The position numbers and the translations under genes were made by a program. A stretch of 64,000 bases of DNA from positions 62,001 to 126,000 of the forward strand of contig NZ_FNXF01000006.1 of assembly GCF_900108485.1 (NCBI RefSeq), in the 5' to 3' direction. The DNA is from Rheinheimera pacifica (GTDB taxonomy: Bacteria; Pseudomonadota; Gammaproteobacteria; Enterobacterales; Alteromonadaceae). The notes beneath the pieces were generated by a model that had not been told where the DNA came from, made no database searches, and saw only the letters and a program-made list of their open reading frames with translations. This document shows, one piece after another, positions 3,676 through 28,189 of the stretch; within the stretch, counting starts at the first letter, position 1, and every line of letters starts with the position of its first letter.

Positions 3676-5733
<2,058 letters not shown>

Positions 5734-5795
5734 ACCCTTTTAAACGCGGCACTTATCTGGTGCCGGTACTGCACTTTATTAGTATCTCCTGTTAA

Positions 5796-5820
5796 CAAAG
5801 GCACCATTTTGGTGCCTTTG
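5796..5820 (+). terminator. Hairpin terminator after fadH
   Basis: A 10-bp inverted repeat (CAAAGGCACC / GGTGCCTTTG) with a 5-nt loop, about 60 bp past the fadH stop. The following T tract is interrupted (TTTGGCCTGTTT), so the call is moderate. Confidence 0.6.
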
Positions 5821-5975
5821 GCCTGTTTAACACATTTACTGTTTTTATCTTGTGCTGGCGCAAAGTGTTATGCATATTGACTGCTGGCTTTTTCGTCATG
5901 CAGGCTGCTATTCTGGTATCAGCTTTGCAATTTGCATACAAAAAGCACACACAGCAAGCACAACAGGGAGTTTCT

Positions 5976-7208
5976 ATGTCCGGGGTATTAACCATGATTC
6001 TGGCTGGCGGTGAAGGTACACGTTTGGCACCTTTAACCGGCATCAGAGCAAAACCAGCTGTACCGTTTGGCGGTAATTACCGCATTATCGACTTTGTTAT
6101 GAATAACTTTGTTAACTCAGATTTATTGCAAATTTTTGTTATTACGCAGTTTAAGTCTCATTCTCTGATGAAACATTTAAGTCGGGCCTGGCGCGTAACC
6201 GGCCTGACCAATCGCTTTATTGATCCCATACCGGCGCAAATGCAGACCGGTAAGCACTGGTATCTGGGCACGGCAGATGCCATTTATCAAAACCTGCATT
6301 TAATTCAGGGGCTGGATCCTGAACATGTCTGTGTGTTTGGCGGCGATCACATTTATAAAATGGATATCCGTCAGATGCTGGATTACCATCGCCATCATAA
6401 TGCCCGGCTTACCGTGGCGGCTATTCCGGTACCGGTAGAGCAGGCACATGAGTTTGGTGTGATAGAAGTAGATGCCAGTGGCCGGATGATCGGCTTTGAA
6501 GAAAAACCAAAAACCAACCCCAAAACTATTCCGGGTAATCCGGGGTTTGTACTGGCCTCTATGGGCAATTACATTTTTGAAGCCAAAACGCTGGTTGATG
6601 TACTGGAAGAAGATGCCAGGCAGGCTGATTCCAAGCATGATTTTGGCCATAACATTATCCCTGGTCTTTATCCATCGGGTGATGTTTATGTATATGATTT
6701 TTCCTCTAATATTATCCGTGGGGAAAGCCAGAGCAGTAGCGGTTACTGGCGTGATGTGGGTACTATAGATTCGTACTACGAAGCTAATATGGATCTGATT
6801 TCAGTAGAGCCGCCATTTGATCTGTACAACAAGTACTGGCCATTACGTGGTTACACGCCACCGGTACCACCGGCAAAGTTTGTGCATGATGAGGCAAACC
6901 GCACCGGTCAGGCAATAAGCTCTATGGTGGCATCAGGCTGTATTGTCAGTGGCTCTATCGTGTACCAGTCTATTTTGGGTTACAACGTGCATGTACATAG
7001 CCATAGTTATATTGAAAAGTGCGTGCTGATGGGCAATAACGATATTGGCCGGGGTTGTCGCATCCGCCGCGCCATTATTGATAAAGACGTGAAAATTGCG
7101 CCCGGTACCATTATTGGCGAAGATCCGGTGCTGGATAAACAACGCTTTCATGTCTCTGCAAGTGGCGTTATTGTGATCCCTAAAGGCGCGATGATTGGTT
7201 TTGATTAA
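5976..7208 (+). CDS. glgC: Glucose-1-phosphate adenylyltransferase (ADP-glucose pyrophosphorylase)
   Basis: Makes ADP-glucose from glucose-1-phosphate and ATP, the committed step of bacterial glycogen synthesis. The ATG at 5976 follows AGGGAG and gives 410 residues. The ORF is open for 42 more codons upstream, but that stretch is Cys/Phe-rich and unlike the family. Motifs: GGEGTRLAPLT nucleotide-binding loop with KPAVPFGG; WYLGTADAIYQN; FGGDHIYKMD; and GFEEKP, which binds glucose-1-phosphate. The C-terminal left-handed beta-helix follows (VLMGNNDIGRGCRIRRAIID). The N-terminus is about 20 residues shorter than in E. coli GlgC, where that extension takes part in allosteric regulation. It forms an operon with glgA, 19 bp downstream. 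Confidence 0.93.
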   Translation: MSGVLTMILAGGEGTRLAPLTGIRAKPAVPFGGNYRIIDFVMNNFVNSDLLQIFVITQFKSHSLMKHLSRAWRVTGLTNRFIDPIPAQMQTGKHWYLGTADAIYQNLHLIQGLDPEHVCVFGGDHIYKMDIRQMLDYHRHHNARLTVAAIPVPVEQAHEFGVIEVDASGRMIGFEEKPKTNPKTIPGNPGFVLASMGNYIFEAKTLVDVLEEDARQADSKHDFGHNIIPGLYPSGDVYVYDFSSNIIRGESQSSSGYWRDVGTIDSYYEANMDLISVEPPFDLYNKYWPLRGYTPPVPPAKFVHDEANRTGQAISSMVASGCIVSGSIVYQSILGYNVHVHSHSYIEKCVLMGNNDIGRGCRIRRAIIDKDVKIAPGTIIGEDPVLDKQRFHVSASGVIVIPKGAMIGFD

Positions 7209-14820: not shown

Positions 14821-17307
14821 ATGAAAAAACATACCTCAACTGCCAGTACTGGTGTAACACAAATTAACACCGAACAGCTGAAAGATCAGATTATCCGTCA
14901 TCTGCATTCCACCTTAGGTACCGACGTAAATAAAGCCAGTCCACAGGCGTGGTGGCGGGCTACCTGTGCGGCGGTAAACGAGCAGGTTTATGACGGCCTG
15001 CGCAACACTCAGCGCACGCACTATGAAAACAACACCCGCGCTTTGCATTATTTTAGCCTGGAATACCTGATGGGCCGTTTGTTCAGCAATAACCTGCATA
15101 ATCTGGGGTTGTATGAACAAGCCAAACAGGCACTGTCAGAGCTTGGGCTAAATATTGCTGATCTGGAAGATCAGGAAGAAGATATGGCACTGGGCAATGG
15201 TGGCCTGGGGCGTTTAGCGGCGTGCTTCATCGATTCTCTGGCCACACTGAATTATCCGGCAATTGGCTACGGCATTCATTATGAGCATGGCTTGTTTCAG
15301 CAAAGTTTTCAGGATGGCCGTCAGATAGAGCGGCCGGATAGCTGGCGCGAATATGCTAACCCCTGGGAGATTTGCCGGCCTGAGTCAGTTCAGGAAATTT
15401 CAGTATACGGTTATGTTGAAACGGTATACGACCTGCAAGGTAAAATGAAAAAAGTATGGCATCCGGGCCGCATTATCAAAGGTGTGCCATGGGATATTCC
15501 GATCGTAGGTTATAACGGCAGTTCAGTGAATGTGTTGCGGTTATGGGAAAGCCGGGCCAGTGACTTTTTTAACTGGGACGTATTTAACTCTGGTGGTTAT
15601 ATAGACGCTTCGCGCGAGAATATCGAAGCGGAGACTATCTCTAAAGTACTGTACCCGAACGATGAAACCGATGCCGGCAAGGAACTTCGCTTAATTCAGC
15701 AGTACTTTTTTGTTTCCTGTTCATTAAAAGACATTATTCGCCGCTATAAACGCACGCATGCCGATGACTGGAGCGACTTTGCCAAGCAGGTGGTTATTCA
15801 GCTGAATGACACACACCCGGCAGTGTCTATACCCGAGTTGATGCGTATTCTGGTTGACCGTGCTGAAATGCAGTGGGATCAAGCCTGGAATATCTGCCAG
15901 CAGGTTTTTGCCTATACTAACCATACCTTATTGCCTGAAGCTCTGGAAAAATGGCCGGTACGGTTATTTGAGAAAGTATTACCGCGCCACCTGGAAATTA
16001 TCTACGAAATTAACCGCCGCTTCCTGGTAGAGCAGGTTGATGTGTTGTGGCCGGGTGACAATGAGAAAAAACGCAAACTGTCGATCATCGAAGAAGGCCA
16101 TGATGCTATGGTGCGAATGGGCCACTTATCAGTGGTGGGTTCGTTCCGGGTGAATGGTGTAGCTGAAATTCACTCAAAACTGGTTAAGTCAGATTTATTC
16201 CCGGAAATGGTAGCCCTGTGGCCAGATAAATTTACGAATGTCACCAATGGTGTGACACCAAGACGCTGGTTAAAAGCCTGTAACCCGAAACTGGCGAAAT
16301 TGCTGGATGACAATATTGGCTCTGAATGGCCAACTGATTTAAAGCAATTGTCTAAGTTTGCTGCCTTTGCTGATGATGTTAAAATTCAGGACGCCTTTAT
16401 AGCGATTAAGCAACAGAATAAAGCTGACCTGGCAAATGTGGTGAAAAAGCTGACGCATATTGATATTGATCCGCATGCCATTTTTGATATTCAGATTAAG
16501 CGGCTGCATGAGTATAAGCGCCAGCACCTGAACCTGTTGCATATACTGGCGTTATACCGTCGTATTCTGCAGGAGCCTGATTATGACATGGTGCCACGTG
16601 TATTTCTGTTTGGTGCTAAAGCAGCGCCGGGCTATAAGCTGGCCAAAGAAATTATTTATGCCATTAATAAAGTTGCTGAGAAAATTAACCACGATAAGCG
16701 GGTGAAAAACCGGTTAAAAGTGGTATTTATGCCCAATTACCGGGTAACTCTGGCAGAGAAAATGATACCGGCCGCTGATGTATCTGAGCAAATTTCTACT
16801 GCAGGTAAGGAAGCCTCAGGTACTGGCAATATGAAGCTGGCACTGAACGGCGCTATTACGGTGGGCACTTTGGATGGTGCCAATATCGAAATTGCTGAGG
16901 AAGTGGGTGACGACAATATCGCTATCTTTGGTCTGACAGTAGATGAAGTAAAAGCTTTACATGCCAACGGCTACAACAGTATGGATTATTACTATGCTAA
17001 TCCAGAAATTAAAGCCATTCTGGACTGGCTGGAAACCGACTATTTTACACCCGGTAAGCCAGGCGAGTTAGCGGCCATTAAGCGCAGTCTGCTGGAGGGG
17101 GGCGACCCTTACCTGGTGCTGGCGGATTTCGAAAGCTACGTTAAAGCCCAGCAGAAAATAGATCAGTGGTATCGCGATAAATCACTGTGGGCTAAAAAAG
17201 CCATACTCAATACTGCCTCGGTAGGCAAGTTTACCTCTGACCGTTCTATCGAGGACTATGTCAGCCGGGTATGGCATTTAGAGAAGTGCCATATCAGACG
17301 CGATTAA
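14821..17307 (+). CDS. glgP: Glycogen/maltodextrin phosphorylase
   Basis: GT35 enzyme releasing glucose-1-phosphate from alpha-1,4-glucan. 828 residues (E. coli GlgP 815). The N-terminal half contains [13 protein letters not shown] and [13 protein letters not shown]. The C-terminal half contains the phosphate and PLP region [19 protein letters not shown], with the PLP lysine at residue 672, then [17 protein letters not shown]. It could be called MalP on sequence alone. The context (pgm, glgC and glgA nearby) favours a glycogen role. A HexR-like palindrome lies upstream and a strong terminator follows. Confidence 0.93.
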
Positions 17308-17318
17308 GCTGCTACCGA

Positions 17319-17345
17319 AAAGCCTGTCACTGACAGGCTTTTTTT
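17319..17345 (+). terminator. Rho-independent terminator after glgP
   Basis: A GC-rich hairpin (AAAGCCTGTCA / TGACAGGCTTT) followed by a run of T residues, 12 bp past the glgP stop. It isolates the methyltransferase operon downstream. Confidence 0.85.
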
Positions 17346-17418
17346 ATCGCTGATGAAATATCGGCATGTAATAGGTAAATCTTTGGCTATATTAGAATAA
17401 GTTCAGCTTTGTGCGGGC

Positions 17419-17448
17419 TTGCTTCCCACCATAGCAACGCCTTATAGT
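17419..17448 (+). promoter_or_regulatory. Candidate sigma70 promoter of the borosin-like operon
   Basis: TTGCTT (17419-17424) and TATAGT (17443-17448) are 18 bp apart, ending 25 bp before the TTG start codon of the methyltransferase gene. This would give a short leader. Found by eye. Confidence 0.35.
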
Positions 17449-17473
17449 GTGAAAAAAAATCAAGGACGTCATT

Positions 17474-18265
17474 TTGCAAACAGGCAGTTTAGTTTGTGTC
17501 GGCACCGGTATGACACTGGGCTCGCATATCAGCCCGCTTTCCCGTAGTTATATTGAACAGGCCGACGTGGTGTTTGTGCTGGTAGCCGACGGTATTACTG
17601 AAAAGTGGATAGAGCAGATGAATGCTGATGTGCGTTCACTCCAGCCTTACTATCTGGAAGGCAAATCCCGCATGCTCACTTATCGCGAGATGGTTGCTGC
17701 TATGCTGGCTGAAGTTAAAGCGGGTAAAAAGGTGGTAGGGGCGTTTTACGGCCATCCGGGCGTATTTGCCTGGGTGCCGCACAATGCCATCAAGCAAGCC
17801 CGTGAACTGGGTTTTACCGCCCATATGGAGCCGGGTATTTCAGCAGAAGATTGTTTGTATGCTGATTTAGGCATCGACCCCGGCACTTATGGCTGCCAGC
17901 ACTATGAAGCCAGCCAGTTTATGTTTTATAAACGCAATATTGATACCGCTGCCTATCTGATATTGTGGCAGGTAGCGGTATCCGGGGATCGCTCTTTAGC
18001 TCGATTCTCTGCGACACCTGCTTTTATGCAACTATTTGTGCAAATGCTGTTGGAATATTATCCGGCAGACCATAATGTCATTTTATATGAAGCTGCTACT
18101 TTACCTATCCAATTTCCAAGAGTGGAGCAGTTGAAATTATCTGAGTTACCTAATGCTATCCTTGATTTAAAAACTACGTTAGTTATCCCTCCGGCTCAGA
18201 AATTACAACCTAACCAGACGATTTTAGCGCAGTTAGCTGCAATGGGGGCGGAACTCGATGTTTAA
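17474..18265 (+). CDS. Stand-alone borosin-type peptide alpha-N-methyltransferase (tetrapyrrole methylase fold)
   Basis: 263 residues, SAM-dependent TP-methylase fold. Motifs seen: the N-terminal glycine loop VGTGMTLGSH; DVVFVLVADG; YGHPGVFAWVPHNAI (from residue 92); and PGISAEDCLYADLGIDPG (from residue 120) followed by GCQHYEASQF. The YGHPG and PGxSAEDCLxADLGxDPxxxGCQxYEA signatures are those of borosin methyltransferases (fungal OphMA, Shewanella SonM), which N-methylate peptide backbones, rather than of cobalamin or siroheme methylases. The enzyme is not fused to a peptide, so it would be a split borosin enzyme acting on a separate precursor. The start is TTG behind AAGGA. Its stop overlaps the ATG of the GNAT gene. 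A different methylation substrate cannot be excluded. Confidence 0.8.
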   Translation: MQTGSLVCVGTGMTLGSHISPLSRSYIEQADVVFVLVADGITEKWIEQMNADVRSLQPYYLEGKSRMLTYREMVAAMLAEVKAGKKVVGAFYGHPGVFAWVPHNAIKQARELGFTAHMEPGISAEDCLYADLGIDPGTYGCQHYEASQFMFYKRNIDTAAYLILWQVAVSGDRSLARFSATPAFMQLFVQMLLEYYPADHNVILYEAATLPIQFPRVEQLKLSELPNAILDLKTTLVIPPAQKLQPNQTILAQLAAMGAELDV

Positions 18266-18755
18266 TGCTGCTGATTTTACCCTGGCAGCTGAAAACTATA
18301 GCGTTAGCGTAATCATGGCTGATGCCCGAGACACTTATATCAGTTTATTTACTGATGCAAAAACGATGAGATGTATTGGGCCAACACTGTCTTCAGAACT
18401 TGCTCAGCAGCATTTCTCTGCGGCCCAGCATTCCAGTTCCCGGAAGCTGACCTCTCAGCTGTATCTGAGTATTAAACTGGCTGATACCGCCAAAGTCATT
18501 GGTATATTTTCAGTTCGTACAACAGCTCTGGATAAAAGTGTTGAAGTAGGTATTATGCTGCTTAGACAATATCACTGTTCAGGGCTTGCTAAAGATGTTG
18601 TTAAAGCCGTATGCGAGCGTATTTTTACTTGTTATGAAGTTAAAAGTGTAATTTGCAATATTCAGCAGCGTAACCTGGCAGCGCGAAAATTGGTAGGTAG
18701 CCTAGGCTTCACCAATGCAGGTTCAGGTTTAAGCTATAGATTAGATAAATATTAA
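18258..18755 (+). CDS. GNAT family N-acetyltransferase (RimJ/RimL-like)
   Basis: 165 residues. The ATG lies inside the end of the methyltransferase gene (8-nt overlap) behind GGGGGCGG, so the two are translationally coupled. GNAT features: a beta-strand IKLADTAKVIGIFSVRTT, then VEVGIMLLRQYHCSGLAKDVVKAVCE, which carries the acetyl-CoA pyrophosphate region, and the late NIQQRNLAARKLVGSLGF typical of RimJ/RimL-type enzymes. Substrate unknown. The context suggests tailoring of the peptide product or a resistance role, which is inference. Confidence 0.75.
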   Translation: MFNAADFTLAAENYSVSVIMADARDTYISLFTDAKTMRCIGPTLSSELAQQHFSAAQHSSSRKLTSQLYLSIKLADTAKVIGIFSVRTTALDKSVEVGIMLLRQYHCSGLAKDVVKAVCERIFTCYEVKSVICNIQQRNLAARKLVGSLGFTNAGSGLSYRLDKY

Positions 18756-18769
18756 TAAGAGGCAGCATT

Positions 18770-19045
18770 ATGCACTCAATAATAAAAGTTTTAGAAACTT
18801 TGGGGACGACAGCCGATTTTTCTGAATTACCAAACGAACGGCTTAATAGTGTTTTTAATCCTCTCGACATAGATACTGAGGTTCAACAGGCGATAAGAGA
18901 GAGAAATGTAGCGAAGCTAGAAGCTCTACTGGACGTGAGACATAAGATCGTTTGTATGATTAATCAGCCCGATCCGGAAGACACTCCTGTTGAGCTACCA
19001 GAACCTGAAGAAGAAGAGCCCACTCAGTCAAGCGCTTGGCGCTAA
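18770..19045 (+). CDS. Candidate split-borosin RiPP precursor 1
   Basis: 91 residues, ATG behind AAGAGG, 14 bp after the GNAT gene and 12 bp before a GGDEF gene. It aligns without gaps over residues 1-64 with the 91-residue protein at 20954. Shared: LETLG (8-12), VFNPLD (28-33), VQ-x-AI (38-42), LEALL (50-54), then VR-x-K-[IV]-V-C-x-I (56-64). The helical N-terminus with an L-x-x-LG motif resembles, from memory, the recognition domain of the Shewanella borosin precursor SonA. The hydrophobic KIVCMI segment is the likely core, and residues 66-91 are Pro/Glu-rich, a possible follower. No signal peptide. The precursor role is inferred from context, not from a characterised homologue. Confidence 0.65.
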   Translation: MHSIIKVLETLGTTADFSELPNERLNSVFNPLDIDTEVQQAIRERNVAKLEALLDVRHKIVCMINQPDPEDTPVELPEPEEEEPTQSSAWR

Positions 19046-19057
19046 TCAAGTTTAACG

Positions 19058-20818
19058 ATGAAATTCAAACTTACACAAACACCATTCATCTGTTGGATGG
19101 TGGCTATTGTGTTGCTTTGTTCATCACAAAGCATACTGGCCTCGGTTTTTCTTAGTCAGCTTACTCAGCTCGAAGAAATCAGGCTGATTAACTTTACTAG
19201 TTTTAGCGCCGGACTAGCAGAGTTGGAAAAAGTAAAAAGTAGTTTTACTGAAGAGGAAAGCCAGTATTTTGCTTTGTTAAAAGGTTATGAAAAGTCGCTT
19301 GCGGGCGAGTACGAGCAGGCATTTATTTACCTTGCTCCACTTATCCAATCAACTTCGTCTGGTATTTATCATTTCAGAGCTAAAGTTCTTGCTGTGAATT
19401 TATATGCGATTTCGCATGATTACTTAAACGCATTTTTGTTATTAGGCGAGCTAAATAAAGAGTTGCCTTTTATTGATGATGCTGTTGCCAGGGCTCAGGC
19501 CGTAGGCAACATAGCCATGCTCTATAATGGAATTGAAAAATATGAAATTGCACTGTTTTATTCTGAACAATTCTTAAATTCAATAAAAGATCAGCAACTT
19601 GTTTGCAGGGTATTAGTTCATAAATTAACTTCTCTGGCAAATCTGAAAAAAAACAGTGATTTTTTGTCTGAAATTGACCATGGCATCGCAACATGCCGAA
19701 AATCTAAAGAGAAAATACCTGAAATTATCATGCTTAGAGATAAAATGCAGGTTTTGCTTCACTTAGAGCGCCTCAGTGAAATTACAAGTTTATACCAAAG
19801 TATTTCAGAGGATGTAGTTGCGACAGGTTATCCGATGTTGATTGCAGGCATATTAAATATTACAGCACAAGCATATCTTCGCGCCGGAGACCTTAGCAAT
19901 GCAGAGCTTTTAGCTGCGACAGCTCTTAGACAGATTGAACACACATCTATCAATTTTGTGCAAACAGAATTATATAAGCTTTTAGCTGACCTAGAAAAAC
20001 GTAAAGGTAATTTCGAGGCTGCATTGGCCTATTTTGAGAAGCATAGCGCGCTTGAAAAAACATATCAGGACGACAAAACAAATCAGCAACTGGCGTTCCA
20101 CCTTGCCGAAGGTGAGTTAGAAGTAAAGGATAAGCGTATCGCTTTGTTAGACAAAGACAATGAGTTGTTGTCGTTACAAAAAAATCTCTATGAGCATGAA
20201 GTAAAACAAAACCGGCTGCTATTGCTTTTGCTGTTTTCTGTGTTGATTATTGCTAGCTTTATGGCTTATCGAGGCATGTCCGGCCGTAAACGCTTTAAAA
20301 AAATTGCTGAGTTTGACCAATTAACCGGTATCAGTAACCGTTATCATTTTAACAATTTGGCTAAAGTAGCTCTGGATTATTGTGAGCTTAACGCTAAGCC
20401 CGCTGCACTCATCCTGTTTGACCTGGATTATTTTAAAACTATCAATGACAACTATGGCCATGCTACCGGTGATTGGGCGTTGCAACAGGTAGTAAAAACC
20501 TGTCGTAACTTTATGCGCAACAATGATGTATTTGGACGGATTGGCGGTGAAGAGTTTGCTGTAGTGTTGCCGGGCTGCCACGCCGATAAAGCCGCACTAC
20601 TGGCAGAAATATGCCGTGACGCCATTGCTACTATAGATACAACAGAAAGCGGTTATCAGTTCCCGCTTAGTGCCAGCTTTGGTGTCAGTTCTTCTGATAT
20701 ATCGGGCTATCAGCTTAAACAGTTATTGGCAGATGCGGATCTGGCAATGTACAGTGCCAAGCAGTCGGGACGAGATCAGATCGCCACTTATACCCACCTT
20801 ATGGATACCGCAGATTAA
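19058..20818 (+). CDS. Membrane GGDEF diguanylate cyclase with periplasmic helical-repeat sensor (copy 1)
   Basis: 586 residues. An N-terminal signal or anchor segment (about 9-29) is followed by a 350-residue periplasmic region with TPR-like helical repeats (AYLRAGDLSNAELLAATALR; LLADLEKRKGNFEAALAYFEK). Next come a short coiled coil (EGELEVKDKRIALLDKDNEL), a transmembrane helix (about 385-403) and a GGDEF domain. The active-site GGEEF (496-500) is intact, with an RNND I-site five residues upstream, so it should make c-di-GMP and be product-inhibited. It starts 12 bp after precursor 1. The 5' half is clearly more AT-rich than its neighbours. It is paralogous to the gene at 21183. Confidence 0.88.
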   Translation: MKFKLTQTPFICWMVAIVLLCSSQSILASVFLSQLTQLEEIRLINFTSFSAGLAELEKVKSSFTEEESQYFALLKGYEKSLAGEYEQAFIYLAPLIQSTSSGIYHFRAKVLAVNLYAISHDYLNAFLLLGELNKELPFIDDAVARAQAVGNIAMLYNGIEKYEIALFYSEQFLNSIKDQQLVCRVLVHKLTSLANLKKNSDFLSEIDHGIATCRKSKEKIPEIIMLRDKMQVLLHLERLSEITSLYQSISEDVVATGYPMLIAGILNITAQAYLRAGDLSNAELLAATALRQIEHTSINFVQTELYKLLADLEKRKGNFEAALAYFEKHSALEKTYQDDKTNQQLAFHLAEGELEVKDKRIALLDKDNELLSLQKNLYEHEVKQNRLLLLLLFSVLIIASFMAYRGMSGRKRFKKIAEFDQLTGISNRYHFNNLAKVALDYCELNAKPAALILFDLDYFKTINDNYGHATGDWALQQVVKTCRNFMRNNDVFGRIGGEEFAVVLPGCHADKAALLAEICRDAIATIDTTESGYQFPLSASFGVSSSDISGYQLKQLLADADLAMYSAKQSGRDQIATYTHLMDTAD

Positions 20819-20953
20819 AAATTTATTGTCGTTCTGTATTATAACATTCCTGTAGTAGTTGTAATTCGTTACGGCCGGGTGCAGGATGGTATTTAAAGTT
20901 TGATTGAGTTTAATGCCTTTTACGTTCGCGTAACAACCTTACAGGAACTGTCG

Positions 20954-21229
20954 ATGAATAAAGTGATTAGCTTGCTTGAAACTTTAGGCCAGAGTGCTGC
21001 GTTACAGAGTCTGGATACTGCAACATTACAAAAAGTATTTAACCCGTTGGATATGGATGTTCAGGTGCAACATGCCATTTTGACCAGGGATCACGTTCAG
21101 TTAGAGGCCTTGCTACAGGTGCGGAACAAAGTGGTATGTGCCATTTGCCCCGCAGAAGAACCGCCACAAGACGTGCCTGAGAATGACGACGAAACCGGGG
21201 AAAAGTCAGCGGTTGCCGCTAGCTTTTAG
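20954..21229 (+). CDS. Candidate split-borosin RiPP precursor 2
   Basis: 91 residues from the ATG at 20954, behind AGGAA; an in-frame TTG at 20900 is less likely because the ATG product has the same length as precursor 1. Residues 1-64 align ungapped with the other precursor. It has LLETLGQSAAL (7-17), VFNPLD, LEALL and VRNKVVCAIC (56-65), with an acidic tail. The LGQ-x-A-x-L motif is especially close to the N-terminus of SonA as I remember it. The hydrophobic NKVVCAIC stretch is the predicted N-methylated core. The 3' end overlaps the reading frame of the following GGDEF gene, which ties expression of the two together. Confidence 0.65.
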   Translation: MNKVISLLETLGQSAALQSLDTATLQKVFNPLDMDVQVQHAILTRDHVQLEALLQVRNKVVCAICPAEEPPQDVPENDDETGEKSAVAASF

Positions 21230-22976
21230 ATTGGCTCAGCCACTGTTAATTAAGCTGATAAAACCGGCATGGATAATCTGTGCTGGTTTCGTTGCTATTG
21301 CATCAGCCAGTGAAATGACTGCGCGATTGGACGCGCTGGATGATCTGAAAGTGGTCAATGTAGCTGAATTCAGTGAAAAGCTGGCAATTATCGCTGAAAA
21401 CCCTGCTGAGCTGACACAATATCAACAAGATTATCTAGAGTTACTACAAAGTTACGAAAAGTCGCTGCGCGGTGATTTTGACGGCGCAGCAGTGCTGCTT
21501 GAATCAATGCTAGCGCGTGATACTGCGCCAGAAATTGTGTTTCGCGTTAAAGCACTGCTGGTTAATGTATTTGCCGTAACCCGAAATTATCGCAATGCGT
21601 TTTCTTATCTTGAGCAAGTAAGTCGTGAAGTTCAGTCTGTCACATCAACCCGGGCAAAAGAACACGGCCTGAGCGTGCTGGCTTATACATATAATCAACT
21701 GTCAGAGTTTGACATTGCCCGGTTTTATGCTCAGCTACTGATCAACAGCGCTACATCTGAAAAAGCATTGTGTCATGGCCGACACCATTTAATTGAATCT
21801 CTGTATGGGTTAGGGCAATGGGAGCTATTTAGCACTAATGTTGAACTGTCAGTAAGCCACTGTGTTAATCACCGTGAGCTGATTTTTGCTAACCTGATTC
21901 GCCTGAAATACTATAACTATTTATTGCTGCATGAACAGTATCAACAGGCAGACGAGTATTATCAATCATTTATAGATTCTGTTGCTAAAACAAATTATCC
22001 GTTTCTGCTTGCGGGCGTTTTAGGGGCTGCTGCAAAAAATAATCTGGCACTGGCACAATATGATGCAGCTGAAGAGTTGGCCAGGCGCACCTTGCAGTAT
22101 TCCGGCAGCTCAGAATTCAGTGTGCCGGTGTTAAATGCTTATGATGTGCTATATCAGGTCAACCATTCACGCAGAGATTATAATAAAGCCTTGGAGTACC
22201 ATATAAAGTATACCTCTGCGCTGAAAGCAAACAGTGATGACCGTTTTGTGCGGCAACAAGCTTACCATGTAGCTAAAGCTGAAATAGAAGTAAAAGATCA
22301 GCGCTTAGCCTTACTTGATAAAGATAACGAACTCCTATTTTTGCAAAAAAACCTGTATGAGCAAGAGGTTCAACAAAACCGGCTTATTATGCTGCTGTTA
22401 CTGTTAATCGTGGCTCTGGTCAGTTTTATGGCCTATCGCGGTATGTCGGGGCGTAGCCGCTTTAAGAAAATGGCTGAGTACGACCAGTTAACCGGGATCA
22501 GTAACCGTTATCATTTTAACAACCAAGCCAGGGTGGCGTTGGATTACTGTGAGTTGGATGCAAAACCTGCAGCACTGATTTTGTTCGACCTGGATTATTT
22601 TAAGAATATAAATGACCAATACGGTCATGCCGCAGGCGATTGGGCATTGCAGCAGGTGGTAAAAACCTGTCGTAATTTTATGCGCAATAATGATGTGTTT
22701 GGTCGTATTGGTGGTGAAGAATTTGCAGTGGTGTTGCCTGGCTGCCATGCTGATAAAGCTGCACTAATGGCAGAAATATGCCGCGATGCCATTGCCACTA
22801 TAGACACAAAAGGCAGTGGTTATACATTTCCACTACGGGCTAGTTTTGGTGTCAGCTCTTCGGATACGTCCGGCTATCAGCTTAAGCAATTATTAGCTGA
22901 TGCAGATCTGGCAATGTACAAAGCTAAGCAGTCCGGGCGGGATCAGGTGTCAATGTATACAGAGGAGCTGGGCTGA
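21183..22976 (+). CDS. Membrane GGDEF diguanylate cyclase with periplasmic helical-repeat sensor (copy 2)
   Basis: 597 residues from the ATG at 21183, which lies inside precursor 2 in another frame. A TTG at 21231, right after that gene's stop, is a plausible alternative giving a cleaner signal peptide (about PLLIKLIKPAWIICAGFVAIASA). Architecture equals copy 1: N-terminal membrane or export segment, periplasmic helical repeats, the coiled coil KAEIEVKDQRLALLDKDNEL, one TM helix, and a GGDEF domain with RNND I-site and GGEEF (510-514 in this numbering). It should be an active cyclase. It ends about 85 bp before astE, with no clear terminator. Confidence 0.85.
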   Translation: MTTKPGKSQRLPLAFRLAQPLLIKLIKPAWIICAGFVAIASASEMTARLDALDDLKVVNVAEFSEKLAIIAENPAELTQYQQDYLELLQSYEKSLRGDFDGAAVLLESMLARDTAPEIVFRVKALLVNVFAVTRNYRNAFSYLEQVSREVQSVTSTRAKEHGLSVLAYTYNQLSEFDIARFYAQLLINSATSEKALCHGRHHLIESLYGLGQWELFSTNVELSVSHCVNHRELIFANLIRLKYYNYLLLHEQYQQADEYYQSFIDSVAKTNYPFLLAGVLGAAAKNNLALAQYDAAEELARRTLQYSGSSEFSVPVLNAYDVLYQVNHSRRDYNKALEYHIKYTSALKANSDDRFVRQQAYHVAKAEIEVKDQRLALLDKDNELLFLQKNLYEQEVQQNRLIMLLLLLIVALVSFMAYRGMSGRSRFKKMAEYDQLTGISNRYHFNNQARVALDYCELDAKPAALILFDLDYFKNINDQYGHAAGDWALQQVVKTCRNFMRNNDVFGRIGGEEFAVVLPGCHADKAALMAEICRDAIATIDTKGSGYTFPLRASFGVSSSDTSGYQLKQLLADADLAMYKAKQSGRDQVSMYTEELG

Positions 22977-23060
22977 TTTACAGTGTAAGCAAGCGTCCGG
23001 TTTGGCTGAGTGCAGTAACTGCGGTAGAATCAGCACATTATAACAATCTGGAGCTGGCGC

Positions 23061-24131
23061 ATGGCGCACTTATCTACCCAACACGCCCAACTGCTGCAAC
23101 ATGGCGACTTTTTGCAACTGACTCTTTCAAACCCTGATGGCTTGCCATCATCACAGTTCACCTTACCTAATGGCACGACGGTCAGTATTCTCGATACTGG
23201 CGTAATATGCTTTGAGCCGGTGCTCAGTGAAAGCAATACTAAAGATATTGTTTTGTCTTGTGGCGTGCATGGCAATGAAACTGCGCCGATAGAAATTTGT
23301 GCCGAGCTGGTAAAAGACCTGCTAACCGGCCAACTTCAACTTAAACACCGCTTGTTAGTACTGTTTGGTAATCCTGCCGCGATAAATGCCAGCACACGCG
23401 AAATTACCGAAAACCTGAACAGGCTGTTTTCCGGTCACCACAGCATGGGGGCGGGCCTGATTAACGCTGAGCGCAAGCGTGCCAAGGCGTTGGAGGAGTA
23501 TGTCAGCCGTTTCTATCAAGAGGTACGCGTAACCAATGTGGTGCCGCGTAACCGATATTTGTATGATTTACACACCGCTATCCGTGGCTCCCGTTTTGAA
23601 AAATTCGCCGTGTATCCGTTCTTGCATAATAAGCCGTGGCAAAAGGCCCAGTTTGAGTTTTTGCAGGCCTGTGATGTCACGACAGTGCTGTTAATGCAAA
23701 CGCCGGCGTCTACTTTTAGCTACTACGCTTCTAATACGCATGGCGCCGATGCCTTTACCATTGAACTGGGTAAGGTACAGCCGTTTGGCCGGAACGATAT
23801 GCAACGTTTTGCCAAAGCACGCGCCGCGCTGCGGCAACTGGTTAGCGAAGCCGCGGTTAGCACAGTACATTTTGATGAGCAGCAGTTTCAGCTGTATCAG
23901 GTGTATCGCGCGATCAATAAGCAAACGCAGGAGTTTAAACTGCACTTTGCCGATGACGTAGAAAACTTTACTGCCTATCCGCAAGGCACCTTGCTGGCGA
24001 CAGACGGTGATATAGAGTACAGAGTAGAGCGCGAAGGTGAAGCCATTATTTTCCCCAATGCCAAAGTGGCCATAGGCCAGCGCGCTATGCTGATGGTGGT
24101 GCCCACTACAGTGGCGCACAATATCGCTTAA
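23061..24131 (+). CDS. astE: Succinylglutamate desuccinylase
   Basis: Last step of the AST arginine catabolic pathway: N-succinylglutamate to succinate and glutamate. 356 residues, somewhat longer than E. coli AstE (322). Zinc carboxypeptidase-like motifs: CGVHGNETAP (His and Glu ligands), NPAAINASTREITENLNRLF, YDLHTAIRGS (third zinc His) and the catalytic Glu region TIELGKVQPFGRND. The ATG follows GGAG. The other ast genes are not in this window, so astE is separated from a canonical ast operon. Confidence 0.9.
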   Translation: MAHLSTQHAQLLQHGDFLQLTLSNPDGLPSSQFTLPNGTTVSILDTGVICFEPVLSESNTKDIVLSCGVHGNETAPIEICAELVKDLLTGQLQLKHRLLVLFGNPAAINASTREITENLNRLFSGHHSMGAGLINAERKRAKALEEYVSRFYQEVRVTNVVPRNRYLYDLHTAIRGSRFEKFAVYPFLHNKPWQKAQFEFLQACDVTTVLLMQTPASTFSYYASNTHGADAFTIELGKVQPFGRNDMQRFAKARAALRQLVSEAAVSTVHFDEQQFQLYQVYRAINKQTQEFKLHFADDVENFTAYPQGTLLATDGDIEYRVEREGEAIIFPNAKVAIGQRAMLMVVPTTVAHNIA

Positions 24132-26596: not shown

Positions 26597-28189
26597 ATGA
26601 AAAAAGATTTTATTCTGCCGGATATCGGTGAAGGTATAGTTGAGTGTGAAATTGTTGACTGGCTGGTTGCCGAGGGTGACACCATCACTGAAGACCAGCC
26701 GGTATGCGATGTAATGACCGATAAAGCCCTGGTGCAAATTCCGGCGGTGCATAACGGTGTGGTAAGCAAACTGTATTATGCCAAAGGTGATATTGCCAAA
26801 GTGCATGCACCGCTGTTTGAAATGCAACTGGCCGGCACGGATAACACAGCGGTTGCCGCGCAACCGGAGGCTGTTGCTGCGCCCACGGCGGCTGCTTCTG
26901 CCGGTAGCGAAGATTTTATTCTGCCCGATATTGGCGAAGGCATTGTCGAGTGTGAAATTGTCGACTGGTTAGTTAGCGAAGGCGATGACATCGTTGAAGA
27001 TCAGCCGGTATGTGATGTAATGACCGACAAAGCGCTGGTGCAAATTCCGGCCAAGTACTCCGGTAAAGTAACTAAGCTGTATTACGCCAAAGGCGAGATT
27101 GCCAAGGTGCATGCGCCGCTGTTTGCGATGCAACATGCCGGCCTGGCATCAGCGCCGCAAGCGGCTGCTGTTACTGCAACGGCTGCGCCGGCTAAAGCTG
27201 CCTGTGCATTACAGCAAAAAGGTGACGCTGTTAGCGCTGGTGCCAGCTCTAATGGCAAAGCACTGGCCAGCCCGGCGGTACGTCGTTTAGCCCGTGAGCT
27301 GAGTATTGATATCAGCAAGGTGCCGGGCAGCGGTGATAAAGGCCGTGTGTATAAGGACGATGTACGTGCTTTTGCTGATGGCAAAATACCGGCCACAGCC
27401 GGCCCTGCATCAAGCGGTAATGTATCAGCGGGTAATGCAGCAAACGCAAGCAGCACTACAGCCTCCGCAACTGTAACATCAGGCGGTAGCCGTAGCGAGC
27501 CGATTAAAGGCATCAAAGCAGCGATGGCGCGGCAGATGGTGGAATCGGTTTCAACCATTCCGCATTTTACCTACTGTGAAGAGATTGATTTAACCGAACT
27601 GATAGCGCTGCGTGCCGGTTTAAAAGATCAGTACGCCAAACAGGGCGTAAAGCTGACCATGATGCCGTTTTTTATTAAGGCCTTGTCGCTGGCGATTAAT
27701 CAGTTCCCGATTATGAATGCCAAAGTGAATCAGGACTGCACTGAGCTGACCTATTTTGACGATCATAATATCGGCATAGCAGTAGACTCGAAAATTGGTT
27801 TACTGGTGCCGAATATCAAAGGTTGTCAGCGTAAATCTATTATTGATATTGCTAACGATTTAACCCGCTTAACCGAGCAGGCCCGTGACGGCCGTGTCAG
27901 CCCGGCTGATTTAAAAGGCGGTACTATCAGTATCTCTAATATTGGTGCCATTGGCGGCACTGTGGCTACGCCCATTATCAATAAGCCGGAGCTGGCGATA
28001 GTAGCACTGGGTAAGGTGCAAACCTTGCCACGCTTTAATGCCAAAGGCGAGGTGGAAGCACGCCAGTTGATGCAAATCAGCTGGTCGGGCGATCACCGCG
28101 TAATAGATGGCGGTACCATAGCGCGCTTTACCAATCTGTGGAAACAGTATCTGGAGCAGCCATCAGCTATGCTGGTAGCAATGCGCTAG
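26597..28189 (+). CDS. bkdB: Lipoamide acyltransferase E2 of the branched-chain dehydrogenase, with two lipoyl domains
   Basis: 530 residues. Domain order: lipoyl domain 1 (about 1-80, lipoyl Lys43 in DVMTDKALVQIP), an Ala-rich linker, lipoyl domain 2 (about 103-182, Lys145 in the same motif), a second Ala/Pro-rich linker, a peripheral-subunit-binding domain (SPAVRRLARELSIDISKVPGSG), a Ser/Ala-rich linker and the catalytic acyltransferase domain ending in SGDHRVIDGGT, which holds the active-site His. The two lipoyl domains are nearly identical, a recent internal duplication. GGAGG precedes the ATG. Last gene of the operon; a strong terminator follows. Confidence 0.93.
   Translation: MKKDFILPDIGEGIVECEIVDWLVAEGDTITEDQPVCDVMTDKALVQIPAVHNGVVSKLYYAKGDIAKVHAPLFEMQLAGTDNTAVAAQPEAVAAPTAAASAGSEDFILPDIGEGIVECEIVDWLVSEGDDIVEDQPVCDVMTDKALVQIPAKYSGKVTKLYYAKGEIAKVHAPLFAMQHAGLASAPQAAAVTATAAPAKAACALQQKGDAVSAGASSNGKALASPAVRRLARELSIDISKVPGSGDKGRVYKDDVRAFADGKIPATAGPASSGNVSAGNAANASSTTASATVTSGGSRSEPIKGIKAAMARQMVESVSTIPHFTYCEEIDLTELIALRAGLKDQYAKQGVKLTMMPFFIKALSLAINQFPIMNAKVNQDCTELTYFDDHNIGIAVDSKIGLLVPNIKGCQRKSIIDIANDLTRLTEQARDGRVSPADLKGGTISISNIGAIGGTVATPIINKPELAIVALGKVQTLPRFNAKGEVEARQLMQISWSGDHRVIDGGTIARFTNLWKQYLEQPSAMLVAMR

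Follow-up and report, generated by a model that had tools for sequence, protein, structure and literature searches.

A predicted split-borosin locus of Rheinheimera pacifica in which precursor genes are paired with genes for TPR-GGDEF membrane proteins

The closest described systems

Split borosins, ribosomally synthesized and post-translationally modified peptides (RiPPs) whose precursor is a protein separate from its backbone alpha-N-methyltransferase, are already known in bacteria (PMC8429565; PMC11395268; reviewed in PMC11285071). The closest described system is SonM-SonA: SonA is methylated at L63 and I65, mutation showed the importance of SonM residues Y58, R67, Y71, and Y93, and, at the time of this 2021 paper, none of the split-borosin pathways had a final product assigned to it (PMC8429565). 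No function for a split-borosin pathway was found in the literature covered. The subject of the present analysis is a locus of Rheinheimera pacifica at positions 17474-22976 of a 64,000-nucleotide window (assembly GCF_900108485.1, contig NZ_FNXF01000006.1, positions 62,001-126,000). In this locus the gene for a SonM-like methyltransferase is accompanied by two units, each consisting of a small precursor gene and a gene for a membrane protein that joins a tetratricopeptide repeat (TPR) sensor to a GGDEF diguanylate cyclase domain (DGC1 and DGC2). We read the locus as a split-borosin module with a dedicated membrane signalling receptor, that is, as a ligand-receptor pair; taken as a whole, this reading is just on the probable side.

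The locus resembles SonM-SonA in having a homologous methyltransferase (54% identity over 255 aligned positions) with the same active-site residues, a separate precursor with a binding domain of the same family, and a TPR-GGDEF neighbour. In a genome matching S. oneidensis MR-1 (locus L258), which encodes a protein 100% identical to SonM over 255 residues and a 71-residue SonA, a 596-amino acid (aa) open reading frame (ORF) of the TPR-GGDEF type starts 0 nt after the SonA stop codon. This ORF is hydrophobic over a stretch near its N-terminus, contains a GGDEF domain, and matches the sensor profile at 7.9e-40, with Pfam TPR models under cut-off; it is 28% identical to DGC1 over nearly the full length. 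The locus looks like that of S. oneidensis MR-1, with sonM, sonA, and the receptor gene adjacent. The main text of PMC8429565 makes no mention of GGDEF, diguanylate, or GNAT; a literature search for SO1478, SO1479, and SO1480 matched only that paper, without SO1480. The R. pacifica precursors differ from SonA in being longer, in carrying an acidic tail after the core segment, which SonA lacks, and in having a cysteine in that segment; the locus further differs in the presence of a GNAT gene and of two precursor-receptor units.

A second likeness is to the Rap receptors and the wider RRNPP group. Rap receptor genes pair with Phr peptide genes, and RRNPP receptors are cytoplasmic, with a helix-turn-helix or phosphatase-type output, and are not known to have a GGDEF output. 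The R. pacifica locus shares with them a TPR superhelix of similar fold and the pairing of a small peptide gene with a receptor gene; it is not a member of the group, having a membrane receptor, a predicted periplasmic TPR domain, a GGDEF output, and a RiPP in place of a plain exported peptide. In the RcbAB system of Vibrio vulnificus, the TPR domain of RcbB represses its own GGDEF cyclase and a partner protein relieves the repression; two cyclases of V. parahaemolyticus with predicted periplasmic TPR domains are also mentioned (PMC12282931). By its description, RcbAB shares the joining of a TPR domain to GGDEF; it differs in that the partner is another TPR protein, both proteins are at the flagellar pole, and the two-gene operon has no methyltransferase (PMC12282931).

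The methyltransferase and its predicted substrates

The methyltransferase gene (17474-18265, + strand) has a TTG start and encodes 263 aa. The top PDB matches of the protein by phmmer are SonM (2e-85) and then enzymes of the OphMA type (about 1e-45); the best match outside these, to a precorrin methylase, is at 0.25. Y58, R67, Y71, and Y93 of SonM correspond to Y60, R66, Y70, and Y92, each invariant in the 36 sequences of an alignment of relatives. The protein scores above the cut-off of the broad Pfam TP_methylase family, the sole tetrapyrrole-methylase-type family for which this holds. Assignment as a cobalamin-type tetrapyrrole methylase was rejected: cobM/cbiF gives 18.3 bits against a cut-off of 259.65, and the other listed NCBIfam equivalog models are also far under theirs. 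The original prediction had named this protein a borosin alpha-N-methyltransferase; the SonM and OphMA-type matches and the retained active-site residues bear it out, and the cobalamin-type grouping that it had set against itself was not seen in the PDB and NCBIfam searches. This is the single methylase gene of the SonM type in the genome, and the locus is almost certainly a type IV split borosin.

Precursor 1 (18770-19045, + strand; 91 aa) is encoded directly upstream of DGC1 and consists of a helical borosin-binding domain (residues ~1-54), a KIVCMI segment, and an acidic tail. Precursor 2 (20954-21229, + strand; 91 aa from an ATG, in an ORF that opens at TTG 20900) is the second copy of the family in the genome, of the same length and 44% identical to the first. 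Taken singly, neither has a Pfam or NCBIfam family above cut-off, and single-sequence phmmer searches of the PDB give no SonA match. A profile built from 71 precursor relatives has seven significant PDB matches, all of them SonA constructs (1.3e-6 to 6.4e-6; next 0.3). In the AlphaFold model of precursor 2 the N-terminal domain has four helices, with a mean predicted local distance difference test score (pLDDT) of 72; SonA chains take ranks 1 and 2 in a Foldseek search with this model, though at E>1, and superposition on the SonA structure gives Z 6.3 and a root-mean-square deviation (rmsd) of 2.7 over 54 aligned residues. By profile and predicted fold the two small proteins are borosin precursors of the SonA borosin-binding-domain family, so that their earlier description as putative substrates in trans is well founded.

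After the binding domain, roughly at the position at which SonA is methylated, each precursor has a hydrophobic segment (KIVCMI or KVVCAI). From the register of SonA L63/I65, the predicted N-methylation segments are residues 59-65 of precursor 1 (KIVCMIN; 18944-18964, + strand) and of precursor 2 (KVVCAIC; 21128-21148, + strand), and backbone methylation of both proteins would be expected. A cysteine occupies this position in 95 of 133 precursor-cyclase pairs. At L061 (6036-8213) five precursor genes, with one 192-aa ORF among them, lie between one methylase gene and one TPR-GGDEF gene.

The membrane partners and a proposed mechanism

DGC1 (19058-20818, + strand; 586 aa) has an N-terminal signal or transmembrane segment, a TPR sensor, a transmembrane segment at residues 382-400, and a GGEEF diguanylate cyclase domain with an RxxD I-site. 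DGC2 (21183-22976, + strand) has the same order of parts: N-terminal signal or transmembrane segment, TPR-type sensor, transmembrane segment, GGEEF, and I-site. Its ORF spans 21138-22976 (612 aa counted from GTG 21138); the start is probably not this GTG but ATG 21183, which lies within the final part of precursor 2. Both proteins match Pfam GGDEF above its cut-off (4.8e-42 for DGC1, 3.8e-43 for DGC2) and keep a GGEEF active site and an RxxD I-site of sequence RNND; they should be diguanylate cyclases with intact catalytic and feedback sites, predicted to synthesize cyclic di-GMP (c-di-GMP). In the AlphaFold model of DGC1 (mean pLDDT 93), an N-terminal helix is followed by a TPR superhelix, and a long helix containing the membrane segment leads to the GGDEF domain. 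Searched against its own genome, the N-terminal region of DGC1 has no matches at E<=0.001 besides DGC1 and DGC2. Among 140 distinct cyclases of this type, all have one hydrophobic segment before GGDEF.

The sensors also carry a pair of cysteines (C183 in 133 of 133 sequences, C213 in 132). This pair was considered as a ligand site and set aside, being also present in orphan and satellite cyclase-type sensors (21 of the 22 aligned orphan/satellite sensors, the exception being the kinase-type L240); it is absent from the 12 kinase-type or TPR-only sensors aligned. Because orphan sensors retain it, the pair looks structural, for example a disulfide, which is compatible with a periplasmic location.

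A mechanism can be proposed from these parts, of which a peptide and its receptor are the simplest account, with the ligand signal converted into c-di-GMP or into phosphorylation. The SonM-like methyltransferase would bind the helical leader (the borosin-binding domain) of both precursors and N-methylate backbone amides just past it. Each precursor gene would be paired with its own receptor, in which an export signal, a periplasmic TPR superhelix, and one membrane helix precede a cytoplasmic GGDEF domain; the N-methylated peptide, or the modified precursor, would be the cognate ligand that sets receptor activity and hence c-di-GMP output. In related loci a homologous sensor is joined to a histidine kinase instead. 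N-methylation is described as conferring permeability on peptides as a general property (PMC8429565), and the periplasm may be reached in this way without a dedicated exporter, or the modified precursor may act from inside. The analysis shows homology, architecture, conserved linkage, and the change of output; for these proteins, methylation, release, passage into the periplasm, binding, the sign of the effect, and the role of the GNAT protein are steps that we infer; the ligand-receptor step itself could equally well hold or fail. By a tentative extension, which we hold to be possible rather than probable, many gammaproteobacterial split borosins, SonM/SonA included, would supply the peptides of a family of peptide-receptor signalling systems and would not be conventional natural products. 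Such a system would have a protease-resistant, membrane-permeable N-methylated peptide with no need of an exporter, a cognate periplasmic TPR receptor, and a swappable output (a diguanylate cyclase, or a histidine kinase with or without a receiver-GGDEF regulator).

Linkage among relatives and alternative explanations

The association of methylase, precursor, and sensor was followed in 80 named genome loci, the best of 493 found (from Rheinheimera, Arsukibacterium, Alkalimonas, Colwellia, Lysobacter, Rhodanobacter, Dyella, Pseudoxanthomonas, and others). A TPR-sensor-GGDEF protein is encoded on the same strand within 3.5 kb of the methylase in 77 of these 80, the three without a cyclase being contigs of 3.3, 3.2, and 5.8 kb, and a precursor-profile match is present in 78. 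A wider, non-random sample, chosen best-first and then for diversity, holds 188 methylases that differ from one another in their last 200 residues and come from 200 loci (L033-L232). Their partners are TPR-GGDEF proteins in 137 cases, TPR-histidine kinases in 30, TPR proteins without a joined output in 4, and none in 17. An earlier tally made without the TPR test (133 GGDEF only, 30 kinase only, 3 both, 22 neither) missed some partners that overlap the methylase ORF.

The 17 methylases without a TPR partner comprise L066, where the partner is divergent and on the other strand; L109, L117, L136, L161, and L178, where contig ends are close; L157, with two precursors and no sensor; L101, the second methylase ORF of its locus; and L179, L189, L204, and L195-L200, the last six from other families of the class. 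The L101 ORF is a 139-aa fragment in Rheinheimera nanhaiensis that, with its own small precursor nearby (5220-6143), lies upstream of the intact locus and is probably a decayed duplicate. L189 (600-2513) encodes a 638-aa protein in which the methylase domain follows about 230 residues without a Pfam match, another borosin-like architecture. Among the TPR-only partners, that of L191 probably represents a single cyclase divided between two ORFs.

The R. pacifica genome has 50 GGDEF matches in 4.46 Mb, or about one per 89 kb; at this density, which is that of one genome, methylase-GGDEF adjacency is not expected by chance. The locus itself is not a chance assembly, given the E-values of the SonM match (2e-85) and of the two GGDEF domains and the recurrence of the arrangement in relatives. 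Grouped by flanking genes, 124 loci fall into 87 distinct contexts. Across 196 genomes of the family, 66 have both the methylase and a DGC-type sensor, 12 the methylase only, 7 the sensor only, and 111 neither (Fisher p=2.5e-31); all 12 methylase-only genomes carry a kinase-type locus. Among close relatives, methylase and cyclase are coupled almost without exception, and SonM/SonA seems to share this coupling.

This linkage bears on a different explanation, in which the borosin would be a conventional natural product destined for secretion. The TPR-GGDEF protein would then be a regulator under shared control that responds to another signal and tunes lifestyle or production, with no action of the peptide on it. 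That the same sensor family recurs in 77 of 80 close-relative loci argues against such a role, as does the position of the precursor gene, which lies directly upstream (<=400 nt) of 133 of the 162 GGDEF proteins near a methylase and of 19 of the 34 kinases; the precursor profile overlooks some short ORFs between methylase and kinase (for example in L212, L219, L220, and L230), which are precursors by eye and were left uncounted. Precursors tend to stay beside sensors: in L049, L053, L174, and L175 the methylase is at the operon end and the precursor remains with the cyclase, and the satellite loci L244-L246 pair a precursor with sensors without an adjoining methylase, which is encoded elsewhere in those genomes. 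Variation of the output while a homologous sensor remains also speaks against the natural-product explanation. It can draw on general knowledge that regulators are common in RiPP clusters and on the loci without partners described below, and we consider it unlikely. Seven loci (L081, L087, L106, L126, L127, L135, and L138) were suspected of precursor-DGC gene fusion; this was rejected, the long DGC ORFs overlapping the precursor out of frame. The precursor under a long DGC ORF is seen in L081, L087, L127, L135, and L138, and none was shown in L106 or L126.

The change of output is observed in distant loci, in which the protein after methylase and precursor is a TPR-histidine kinase, in some cases with receiver and Hpt domains. 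Between DGC-type and kinase-type sensors, 356 columns can be aligned (probability 99.8, E=5e-30, scores of a kind that repeats inflate); a related sensor is retained while the output domain changes. Behind the kinase, L203, L205, L212-L215, L217, and L218 have a GGDEF ORF of 299-319 aa. In the two of these that were scanned, L203 (6372-10881) and L212 (6172-10252), the kinase is a TPR-hybrid kinase and the GGDEF ORF encodes a receiver-GGDEF response regulator, so that c-di-GMP may be the end point there too. In L228, L231, and L232, the TPR proteins that come after methylase and precursor have no output domain fused to them, an arrangement that would suit a scaffold or immunity protein, that is, a partner in assembly, protection, or processing of the borosin for which the GGDEF or kinase output is secondary. 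Most partners, however, keep the GGDEF active site (GGEEF in 136 of the 140 distinct cyclases) and the RxxD I-site (123 of 140), and the scanned kinase-type partners keep their kinase domains, some with receivers, which makes a scaffold or immunity role very improbable.

Several observations weigh against the ligand-receptor pair. An N-terminal hydrophobic segment was found by a simple hydropathy scan in only 112 of 140 cyclases, so that the TPR domain is placed in the periplasm by prediction. In favour of the pair, the TPR part of the DGC1 model superposes on pheromone-bound Rap (8rsu; Z 24.2, rmsd 4.3, 305 aligned) and on RapF with an inhibitory peptide (4i9c; Z 23.8, rmsd 4.5, 313 aligned); unrelated TPR proteins score as well or higher, and because TPR superhelices broadly match each other the likeness to Rap supports peptide binding only weakly. 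Sensors also occur without the peptide: 12 of 15 further sensor loci fetched have no adjoining precursor or methylase (8 in genomes without a methylase match and 4 in genomes that have such a match). Of these 12, L240 is a weaker match of the kinase type, and at L242 (3199-7822), the syntenic site in a genome of the same genus, the TPR-GGDEF gene stands without methylase or precursor. Part of the sensor family may therefore have other ligands. Flanking the L242 gene are a phosphoglucomutase-like ORF, as judged by eye, and an AstE-like ORF. Among eight methylases from other families of the class, L193 and L194 have a TPR-GGDEF partner and the other six (L195-L200) neither a recognised precursor nor a TPR partner.

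Also adverse is the apparent lack of an exporter or protease gene in the module. A link between shewasin A and a borosin precursor has reportedly been made (Lee, 2024); a search of the R. pacifica genome with PF00026 (shewasin-type pepsin) gave no match, and the control likewise matched nowhere. The lack of an exporter or protease in the module, together with the lack, by eye, of a signal peptide in either precursor, would suit a cytoplasmic role, in which the modified precursor is never released and serves as a regulatory subunit whose methylation is a switch, perhaps reporting S-adenosylmethionine supply, that acts on the cytoplasmic coiled coil or the GGDEF domain. Such a subunit would also fit the closeness of the precursor end to the cyclase start noted above, which reaches 0 nt in L258.

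The co-divergence evidence for precursor-sensor pairing is mixed. Precursor distances track sensor distances when methylase and GGDEF are controlled (r=0.23; 0/100 permutations). Distances in the core segment track GGDEF (r=0.34; 0/100) and not the sensor (r=0.10; 7/100), a result that suits the subunit; against it, the distances of whole precursors show no such relation to GGDEF when sensor and methylase are held constant (r=0.03; 22/100). The permutations in all of these tests ignore relatedness. Faster divergence of tandem sensors as a sign of specificity was also considered and rejected, with no excess over between-locus pairs at matched GGDEF identity. The part kept across output swaps is the TPR domain, predicted to be periplasmic, and this argues further against a cytoplasmic subunit, which we judge improbable.

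The remaining features of the locus were as first described. The ORF list gives six ORFs on the + strand in the sequence methylase, GNAT, precursor 1, DGC1, precursor 2, and DGC2, and the order, coordinates, and motifs of the original prediction, with its 263-residue methylase, overlapping GNAT gene, and two units of a 91-residue protein and a membrane GGDEF protein, are all present. The GNAT acetyltransferase (18258-18755, + strand; 165 aa; Acetyltransf_3, Pfam PF13302, 1.7e-15) overlaps the methylase end by 8 nt; a GNAT relative lies within 3.5 kb of 75 of the 188 distinct methylases. The 828-aa ORF that precedes the six genes on the + strand we take, by recognition, to be glycogen phosphorylase. 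Rfam at gathering thresholds has no match in 17250-23100, and counts of promoter-like sites (17, against 12.9 +/- 3.5 in shuffles) and terminator-like sites (8, against 7.5 +/- 2.9) give no usable signal. Elsewhere in the window (26597-28189), an ORF for an E2-like acyltransferase has, by eye, two near-identical lipoyl-domain-like repeats at its start.

Coupling of borosin precursors to c-di-GMP synthesis had been put forward as undescribed, and this stands in part. No paper pairing borosin with diguanylate cyclase was found in a search that left Imani 2022, Cho 2022, and Lee 2024 outside its range, and none on N-methyltransferase, RiPP, and diguanylate cyclase together or on N-methylated peptides and c-di-GMP. 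The pairing of borosin with GGDEF returned one paper only, from 2024, in which GGDEF is listed as an abbreviation in the legend of Figure 1 on borosin architectures (PMC11395268); the novelty is partial for this reason. What is possibly new is that precursors are paired with receptors, how general this pairing is, and that the output is swapped.

Conservation of the receptor partner points to a concrete and testable function for split borosins. If the proposed ligand-receptor pair is correct, a backbone-methylated RiPP would join the known inputs of c-di-GMP signalling, and the family would constitute a peptide-receptor system with interchangeable outputs.

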